From Chloroflexota bacterium (GTDB lineage Bacteria; Chloroflexota; Anaerolineae; J036; Brachytrichaceae): a DNA stretch of 64,000 nucleotides. The DNA is taken from positions 1 through 64,000 of the forward strand of contig JANXLU010000087.1 in assembly GCA_025354985.1 (NCBI GenBank), read 5' to 3'. The translations under genes and the position numbers were made by a program. The notes under the pieces are model-generated. The model saw only the letters and a program-made list of their open reading frames with translations, did no database searches and was not told the origin of the DNA. Positions 33,699-37,076 of the stretch are shown here, piece after piece (the first letter of the stretch is position 1; every line of letters starts with the position of its first letter).

Positions 33699-35066
33699 TC
33701 AGCTGGGTTTGTATTGAAAAGTATCGATTGTGGACCGAAATCGTCGCCACATCAGAAACGCCATTACCGGCGTCAGCACGGCGAAAACTGTCCAAACCGT
33801 TACGAGCGCACCACCTACAAGGTTCAACAGAAGTGCCGCCGTCAGCACGATAATCCACAGGCCGCCACCAAAGATGATGAGCGGTGTGCTCGTGTTACCA
33901 GTACCCCGCAGTCCGCCGGCCTGCACGAAGAGAATCGCCAGGGCGGGCATGCTAAGCGCCTGAACCCGGGTGGAGTTGGTTCCCGCCTCAATCACGGCCG
34001 GATCAGACGTGAACGCCGCCAAAATGACTGGAGCGAGAACAAATAGTATCGCCCCGAAACCGCTCATCCAGATCAGCGCCCATTCCATCGCGATCCGGGT
34101 TGCGGCTGCACCATCGCGAATATTGCGAGCGCCGACCGCCTGACCAACCAGCGCCGTGGCGGCGATAGAAAATCCGAACCCGGGTAAGAATGCGAGCGAA
34201 AGCGCGTTAAATGAAATTCGCATCGCCGCCAACACCACGGTGCCAAGCTGACCCAGCACAACCGTAAGCACAAAAAAGGCGCCTGCCACCAAAATTTGTT
34301 CAAGGGCGGCCGGAATGCCAATCGCCATGACCGTGCGCGCAATGGCCACATCGGGACGCCAGGCACCCCGCCCCCGAATACTGATGCCACCGCGCCCGCG
34401 CCAGAGAACGGTCAGCAACACGGCGAGTGCAATGCCACGCGCAATAAACGTGGCCCAGGCACTCCCGACCGGACCAAGTTCCGGTAACCCGAGCCTGCCA
34501 TAGATCAATCCGTAAGCCAATGGAATGTTGATCACATTTGCGATCGTTGTGGTTATGAGAGGCGTGCGCGAATCACCGGCGCCGCGCAACACGCCGCCCC
34601 CAATAAACAACCCCACCAAAACAACCACCGTGCCCATGGTGACGTGCATATAGCCCAGAGCTATATCGGCCGCCGCTGGCTCAAGACCAAACAGGCGGAC
34701 CAATGGCGATGCACCAATATATCCGGCGATGGCCAAAGGTATCGAAACAAGCGCGCTCCAAACCAGGGATTGGCGGGCAAGATTGCTGGCGCGCGTCATG
34801 TCTTTGGCGCCATACGCCTGTGCCACCAGCACGGAAGCGCCGATTGCCAGCGCAGACAACGCAGACAACAAAAATTGCATCATTTGCACCGCGACTCCCA
34901 CACCAGCGAGTGCAATTGCGCTGTAGGCCAGCTGCGACACCAGCCACGTATCAACGACACCCAGCAATGTTTCCAAAAAGTTTTCGGCAATAACAGGCCA
35001 GGCCAAAGAAAATACCCGGCGACGGAGGCCGGGTGAGGGTTGCGGTGTTGAATTTGCGATGTTCAC
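33699..35066 (-). CDS. MATE family efflux transporter
   Basis: 455 aa, 12 TM; FSLAWPVIAENFLETLLGVVDTWLVSQLAYSAIALAGVG. Confidence 0.9.
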   Translation of the reverse strand: MNIANSTPQPSPGLRRRVFSLAWPVIAENFLETLLGVVDTWLVSQLAYSAIALAGVGVAVQMMQFLLSALSALAIGASVLVAQAYGAKDMTRASNLARQSLVWSALVSIPLAIAGYIGASPLVRLFGLEPAAADIALGYMHVTMGTVVVLVGLFIGGGVLRGAGDSRTPLITTTIANVINIPLAYGLIYGRLGLPELGPVGSAWATFIARGIALAVLLTVLWRGRGGISIRGRGAWRPDVAIARTVMAIGIPAALEQILVAGAFFVLTVVLGQLGTVVLAAMRISFNALSLAFLPGFGFSIAATALVGQAVGARNIRDGAAATRIAMEWALIWMSGFGAILFVLAPVILAAFTSDPAVIEAGTNSTRVQALSMPALAILFVQAGGLRGTGNTSTPLIIFGGGLWIIVLTAALLLNLVGGALVTVWTVFAVLTPVMAFLMWRRFRSTIDTFQYKPS

Positions 35067-35095: not shown

Positions 35096-35710
35096 TTAGG
35101 GCTGAGACGCGCGGACTTTGTCGACGGCTTCCTTGATTACCTCATAGGGTTGCGCACCGCTGATCAAATACCGATTGTTGATCACGATGGCAGGCACGCC
35201 GTTTAGGCCGTAGTCCCGAGCCTGGTCAACGTCTGCAGTTACGAGCTCGTCCAGATCAACGCGCTCAAGCGCCTGCATGAATTCATCTTGATTTAGACCG
35301 GCCTCCACCGCGAGACCAGAGAGCATGACCAAGTCATCGATGCGAGCGGCGTCATGCCACATGGCCCGCAGTACGCGGGCGTGATATTGCTCGCCTCGCC
35401 CGGCCTCTTCGGCATACTTTGCCCCCACAAGCGCCGGACGCGAGTTTTGACCGCTGGGGCCGGAGTTTATGACCAGTCCATACTGCTGAAGAGCAACGGC
35501 GTTAAACCGCGGGCGACTGGCCTCAATCCGTTTCTTATATTCCTCCGGCATCGGCGGCGAGCCTGCCGGTCGCAATTCATAGGATCGCCATCGAATGCTT
35601 ACATCGTGGCCAAAATTCAGCTGGAGCTTCTCCAAACTGGAGGAGACAAGATAACACCACGGTCAGACAAAGTCCGACCAGACATCAATGTGAACCGACT
35701 TCGTGCTCAT
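35096..35710 (-). CDS. DsbA/FrnE-family oxidoreductase, candidate selenoprotein (UPWC active site; TGA at 35663-35665)
   Basis: Reverse-strand reading from ATG at 35708-35710: MSTKSVHIDVWSDFV[TGA]PWCYLVSSSLEKLQLNFGHDVSIRWRSYELRP...; the TGA replaces the first Cys of the family CPWC motif. ORF track begins only after the TGA (35635). Confidence 0.75.
35627..35645 (-). promoter_or_regulatory. Candidate bacterial SECIS hairpin downstream of the in-frame TGA
   Basis: CTCCA-GTT-TGGAG, extendable through one C.A mismatch to CT/AG; apical loop begins with G and lies 25 nt after the TGA. Confidence 0.5.
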
Positions 35711-35741: not shown

Positions 35742-37076
35742 TTACGAAACGGGTGACCGCGCCTTGTGAATCTCATCGCCCAGCTTGCCCAAAATGCCAC
35801 GCCGCTCGCAATACATAATTAGCTCTATTACCTTGGCGGACTTGGTATCACCGGCAATATCCTCAAAATCCAAACCCATCGCAAAGCAAAGTGCTTTGAT
35901 TTCGGACATCGAGAAGCTGGTCGCGAGCTCATCTCGCAGGATAAAGCGATCTTGCGACGCAACAGGCGTATGCTCCGCCGTGGCACGCTGAACACCCGCG
36001 ATTGCATTGGCGAGTGAGGTGCTGATCGTGATGGTCGTATTGTTGACTGTTTGAATGATTGTATTACTCGAACCAGCGATCTGAACAACGCCGACACCGC
36101 CGCTCACGCTCTGAGAGGTTGCAGCAGCCGCAGCGGCAAGCGTGGTCACAACATCGTTGGCATCCGGAATGTCAACATCCTTGGCGTAGCCCGCACCCGC
36201 ATGCACGAGGGCAATCGGAAAATTTTGACCGGAGATTTTGTAGTCCGGGTTCTGGCCGTTCGGTGAATGCTCCTTGTTAACGCGCTTGTTCACGGTCTCA
36301 TCGAGGTAGGTGGCCAGCCCAAGCACGCCAACTGCAGTTTCCCGGGTATTCAACTGCAGCGTGTGAGCGTGTCCAATCAGTGCCTGAATCACATAATAGG
36401 TAAAGACGCTCATACTGCCATCCAGCAAAACCCAGGATTTCTCTTCACCTTGAGACGAACTTATGACCGTTCGACCGTGCATCAGTGACAAACTTTCCGC
36501 CACGCCTTTGGCTCCCTTAAGTTCTACATCGTTCGTGGAAATGGCCTTGGAATCAGGCGCCAGAAAGCCATCAATAGGTGCAGCGGCAGAACGGATGATC
36601 GGGACGTTCTTGGCAAGCGCGCCGATTCCACCCGCCCGGCAGCAATCCAGCAGCACCAGCAGCCGCTGTGGGTTGAGCGCATTGATCCCGTCGGAAAAAT
36701 CAACAGCGGCAAGCGATGTGGCGCGCAGCGACACAGCGTCGACGTCATAGGGAATCAAATAGTATCCCGCCTCATCGCGGTGGCCGTGACCGGTGTAGTA
36801 GACAACGGCCGTCGCATTGCCACTCACATCTGCATTCAACTTGTCGCGCAGCCAACCAAGCGCACCCAGAATATTGGCGCGTGTAGCGTTCATGCCGCTT
36901 ACGATCTTGATATTTTCCGCCGGGTAACAGCAGTGTTCCGGGCTGGCAAGCACGCCTGCAAAAGCGTCTACATCGCGCTTGACCGCAGGCAGTTTTAGGT
37001 CATTTACGAGGCTGTCATCGACGCAGATGAGCAAGGCGTAGCCGTGGTTAAAAACTGGTGGGGTTGGATTTGGCAT
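35742..37076 (-). CDS. Caspase-like (C14) protease with C-terminal effector-associated domain (EAD7-like)
   Basis: YYTGHGHRDEAGYYLIPYD (His) and LLVLLDCCRAGG (Cys); C-terminal ELATSFSMSEIKALCFAMGLDFEDIAGDTKSAKVIELIMYCERRGILGKL. Confidence 0.85.
   Translation of the reverse strand: MPNPTPPVFNHGYALLICVDDSLVNDLKLPAVKRDVDAFAGVLASPEHCCYPAENIKIVSGMNATRANILGALGWLRDKLNADVSGNATAVVYYTGHGHRDEAGYYLIPYDVDAVSLRATSLAAVDFSDGINALNPQRLLVLLDCCRAGGIGALAKNVPIIRSAAAPIDGFLAPDSKAISTNDVELKGAKGVAESLSLMHGRTVISSSQGEEKSWVLLDGSMSVFTYYVIQALIGHAHTLQLNTRETAVGVLGLATYLDETVNKRVNKEHSPNGQNPDYKISGQNFPIALVHAGAGYAKDVDIPDANDVVTTLAAAAAATSQSVSGGVGVVQIAGSSNTIIQTVNNTTITISTSLANAIAGVQRATAEHTPVASQDRFILRDELATSFSMSEIKALCFAMGLDFEDIAGDTKSAKVIELIMYCERRGILGKLGDEIHKARSPVS

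Follow-up and report, generated by a model that had tools for sequence, protein, structure and literature searches.

An in-frame TGA at the active site of a FrnE-type DsbA-family gene is very probably read as selenocysteine

Does a TGA codon near the start of an otherwise intact FrnE/DsbA reading frame encode selenocysteine, or does it betray a damaged, misread or shorter gene? In the window (the whole 64,000-nt stretch of Chloroflexota DNA analyzed here), the original prediction held that the ORF caller had shortened one minus-strand gene to 35096..35635, and that an ATG at 35710 precedes an in-frame TGA at the first Cys of a CPWC motif. Inspection of the frame found exactly this. The caller begins at TTG 35635, and from ATG 35710 the 204-codon frame runs through fifteen sense codons, a TGA (35665-35663) that is its sole interruption, 188 codons and a TAA ending at 35096, with no further in-frame start between the upstream stop and the ATG. 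The read-through translation (35710-35096, minus strand), MSTKSVHIDVWSDFV*PWCYLVSSSLEKLQ...KVRASQP*, has a single internal stop, which coincides with the first active-site Cys of CPWC, and contains one Cys besides the selenocysteine (Sec).

We hold it to be nearly certain from the sequence comparisons below that this is a genuine selenoprotein gene, in which Sec would be inserted at UGA codon 16 by means of SelB and a downstream hairpin to yield a cytosolic FrnE-type product (Table 1). The selenocysteine reading of the TGA is strongly supported, given the intact frame, the Sec machinery that this genome encodes, the conserved UGA, the conserved and covarying hairpin and the predicted fold.

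Table 1. Features at the selenoprotein locus (window coordinates)
Feature	Position	Strand	Remarks
Predicted selenoprotein gene	35096..35710	-	predicted 204-residue dithiol-disulfide oxidoreductase of the FrnE/DsbA family, cytosolic, with UPWC in the active site
In-frame UGA, predicted selenocysteine codon	35663..35665	-	residue 16, first position of UPWC
Codon of the putative resolving Cys	35654..35656	-	residue 19 of UPWC, invariant in 22 aligned sequences
Candidate bSECIS hairpin, CTCCTCCA-GTT-TGGAGAAG	35627..35645	-	core 35630-35642, loop GUU 35635-35637, 25 nt after the UGA
MATE-family efflux transporter	33699..35066	-	start lies 29 nt past the stop codon of the selenoprotein gene
Caspase-fold peptidase (C14) with C-terminal EAD7	35742..37076	-	directly upstream of the selenoprotein gene

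Selenocysteine machinery and conservation of the UGA

The window genome (4.19 Mb in 98 contigs, 95.8% complete) contains all four genes that the original prediction had proposed looking for: selA (510 bits, cut-off 268), selB (317 bits, curated cut-off 242), selD (381 bits, cut-off 125) and selC, the tRNA-Sec gene, which scores 65.3 bits (gathering score 47) and has a UCA anticodon according to ARAGORN. The selD gene (L018 1501-2436) has an in-frame TGA of its own at L018:1531, in the motif CAGUAGKL (CAG-U-AGKLNPETL), presumably the usual Sec/Cys position of SelD; with the FrnE-type gene, this would give the genome at least two selenoprotein genes. Genome-wide reassignment of UGA, for example to Trp or Gly, would also place UGA within conserved reading frames without any selenocysteine, but TGA still acts as an ordinary stop, terminating 11 of the window's 40 large ORFs, the UGA takes the place of a catalytic Cys and not of a Trp or Gly, and both the Sec machinery and a tRNA-Sec with anticodon UCA are present, so that such a reassignment has a vanishingly small probability.

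Homologues were sought in 100 genomes, comprising the window genome and 99 relatives. Where Cys or Sec had been anticipated in close homologues, we found that 20 full-length homologues from 20 other genomes share with the window gene a single TGA in the same column and a frame that is otherwise intact; they are 27-57% identical to the window gene, with eight families in all. Only one full-length homologue in this search, the more distant L038, has Cys in the TGA column. Among the 22 aligned sequences the invariant columns are position 16 (Sec or Cys), C19 and V172-P173 before the last strands. The in-frame UGA aligns with the Cys of L038 and of 80 further homologues, and the coding sequence is conserved on both sides of it.

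A nonsense mutation or base-calling error that changed TGC or TGT to TGA in a Cys-type FrnE, leaving a pseudogene or an assembly error, is compatible with the single sequence viewed alone. The original prediction judged a chance hit on the redox Cys to be unlikely, and the homologues bear it out: the window gene and its 20 homologues, all from separately assembled genomes, share this one TGA codon and have no other in the frame, the sequence downstream remains conserved at the identities given above with none of the decay in relatives that would have spoken against a selenoprotein, and the hairpin covaries (see below). In practice the homologues already refute the mutation or error, and we rate its chance as minute.

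Among the 21 genomes with the Sec form, selA scores over the cut-off in 16 and is present as fragments in two more (G012 and G073), leaving G001, G014 and G025, all fragmented assemblies, with no detectable selA. Since tRNA-Sec and selB are over the cut-off in all three, the missing selA likely reflects gaps in these assemblies. Finding selA alongside the Sec form is in any case uninformative, because selA exceeds the cut-off in 82 of the 100 genomes. For comparison with Cys-containing counterparts, a control set of 80 Cys homologues came from a scan of genome contigs in which the pattern was back-translated with Cys codons and which returns Cys forms only. The nearest homologues include Anaerolineales records, which may point to Chloroflexota as the source. 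In L049, which of the Cys homologues found is closest to the window gene (53% identity), TGC stands at the Sec codon and AGC replaces AGT, the hairpin at 25 nt is absent, and its genome yielded no selA. Five of eight Cys-form genomes, including that of L049, are without a selA match over the cut-off and three have selA, which weakly supports an absence of selA going with the Cys form. The contig with L049 (positions 2001-2597) is labelled Bacteroidetes despite this identity to the window gene; the label seems doubtful, and the contig is perhaps mislabelled or part of a mixed bin.

The hairpin downstream of the UGA

The hairpin described in the original prediction, CTCCA-GTT-TGGAG with a loop G at 25 nt from the UGA and extendable past one mismatch, is present in every respect: the core (35642-35630) has 5 bp, or 7 bp with one mismatch when the two extra pairs past it are counted. 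According to the published bacterial SECIS model (PMC13188914), the loop should have 3-9 nt with a G among its first two positions, the upper stem should have 4-16 bp, the distance from the UGA should be 16-37 nt, and the free energy should not exceed -7.5 kcal/mol. In loop size, stem, loop G and spacing the window hairpin conforms to this geometry, as had been claimed for the published spacing and loop-G rules. Its folding energy alone is -4.9 kcal/mol, weaker than the cut-off, and longer stretches fold at -7.1 kcal/mol (39 nt) and -10.3 kcal/mol (45 nt), both with a different, wider apical loop. As 63 of 1000 synonymous recodings gave a hairpin at least as stable, and as the energy varies with the stretch folded, a hairpin in one sequence proves little, and that of the window, taken alone, is weakly significant. 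The single-sequence argument of the original prediction was to this extent overstated; what stands is a hairpin that is present, conserved and covarying in relatives.

The evidence for the hairpin is strong by virtue of that comparison. In an alignment of 13 members of the window gene's subfamily, the 5-bp core pairs in all 13 sequences, with G first in every loop. Three of the five core pairs vary on both sides, giving 8 compensatory cells against a shuffle mean of 1.7 (18 for the extended 8-bp stem), counts that come from related sequences and are not independent events. None of 500 shuffles reached the observed covariation score, and the signal was lost when the partner strand was slid by 1-3 columns. 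The loop G is supplied by the Ser codon AGT in 13/13 sequences; farther along these genes AGT accounts for 3% of the Ser codons, and in the window genes for 13.6%. None of the 80 Cys homologues has the hairpin of the window subfamily, nor that of either other subfamily in place. Some hairpin within the loose bSECIS model was found in 39 of these 80, so the loose model by itself does not discriminate.

These results also bear on where translation starts. If the true gene began after the TGA, at TTG 35635, the product would be shorter and lack the active site; this is the start chosen by the ORF caller, and one active-site Cys is missing in some DsbA-like proteins. It would, however, remove the first strand and the CxxC, the segment VHIDVWSDFV upstream of the TGA is conserved across relatives, and the TTG itself sits in the conserved hairpin, all of which makes a downstream start very unlikely.

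Hairpins of the Sec-form genes differ between subfamilies. The window-type subfamily has a GUU or GUC loop at 25 nt, and six homologues make up a second subfamily, whose hairpin of 6-8 bp lies 20 nt from the UGA and has the loop GGGYG. We also observed a distinct Sec subfamily in L039 (1501-2112) and L040 (1501-2106, minus strand), with UVWC instead of UPWC and the hairpin GCCTC-GGC-GAGGC at 20 nt. Given that the three subfamilies differ in hairpin, loop, spacing (25 versus 20 nt) or motif (UVWC), this bacterial class may have seen more than one origin of Sec-type FrnE, or more than one rebuilding of its SECIS, a reading that we offer tentatively and think rather doubtful.

Protein family, proposed function and known relatives

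The Pfam DSBA domain (PF01323) matches the read-through protein over its full length (residues 8-196, E 8e-34, 117.5 bits, gathering score 25.6). Single-sequence structure prediction gave a pLDDT of 46, and we used instead an alignment-based model with a mean pLDDT of 95. Its best PDB match is FrnE of Deinococcus radiodurans (TM-score 0.88 by query length, about 30% identity), which was also the best match of a profile search (E 1e-49). The model has the FrnE fold with a CPxC-type site, here UPWC, and Val-Pro before the last strands; the protein begins almost at the first strand, and no signal peptide was seen in its sequence.

Under the proposed mechanism, translation would begin at ATG 35710, SelB would bind the hairpin that follows UGA codon 16 and bring Sec-tRNA-Sec to this codon, and the ribosome would insert selenocysteine, a step predicted here from sequence, and continue to the TAA. 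The product would be a cytosolic FrnE-type protein that has the DsbA/thioredoxin fold and carries Sec-Pro-Trp-Cys in its active site; the selenolate would attack substrate disulfides, with Cys19 resolving the selenenylsulfide. We infer its cytosolic location, and likewise its electron donor and substrates. By analogy with D. radiodurans FrnE, the redox direction would be reduction or isomerization, and the protein may act in cytosolic thiol repair.

The window gene is a well-supported new member of the Sec-containing DsbA-like family of COG2761, which we take to be the FrnE group, known since 2005. It shares with that family the Pfam family, the UxxC motif, Sec at the first active-site Cys and a bacterial-type SECIS directly after the UGA; compared with published members by description, it differs only in organism, and no difference in motif or mechanism was found. 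Nine Sec-containing DsbA-like proteins (COG2761, UxxC) were reported in the Sargasso Sea metagenome study (PMC1088965), DsbA-like proteins count among the commoner selenoproteins (41 organisms, PMC5029168; likewise PMC2398784), and a 2026 review lists a DsbA-like protein form 1 with PF01323 and UxxC (PMC13188914). The selenoprotein reading of the original prediction is supported, each of the proposed checks that was run having come out in its favor, and its novelty is less than was implied, as the Sec form of COG2761 had already been described (PMC1088965). Other prokaryotic Sec-containing thioredoxin-fold proteins (DsbG-like, Prx-like, Trx and Grx) are likewise UxxC redox selenoproteins with a bSECIS, but they form separate families, and the window protein groups with DSBA/FrnE.

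FrnE of D. radiodurans (DR_0659; PDB 5cnw, 5co3 and 5xwh) has been described as a disulfide reductase/isomerase of the cytosol that takes part in tolerating stress from cadmium and diamide (PMC8945050). The window protein resembles it in full-length fold, predicted cytosolic location and CPxC-type site, and differs in having Sec instead of Cys at the first active-site position and in ending at residue 204 without the C-terminal CxxxxC motif. This motif is also missing from some known FrnE proteins (PMC8945050), and another regeneration partner has been suggested for other short ones. With CxxxxC absent, the active site must be regenerated otherwise than in D. radiodurans FrnE, through another partner.

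The gene neighborhood offers no functional hint. The MATE transporter gene is possibly co-transcribed with the selenoprotein gene, but the neighborhood is not common to the relatives compared, and we therefore draw no functional link from it. On the other side, the C14/EAD7 protein looks like a conflict or defense effector of the EAD kind.

For annotation, the selenocysteine reading corrects a gene call in which the standard procedure removes the active site of the enzyme and begins the gene inside its own recoding signal. Within this bacterial class, close full-length homologues usually have the Sec form of FrnE, and they make up a compact series for which the UGA, the hairpin spacing and the protein family are known throughout. 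Should SECIS elements indeed have had multiple origins here, the family would be a natural series of such origins within one protein fold.
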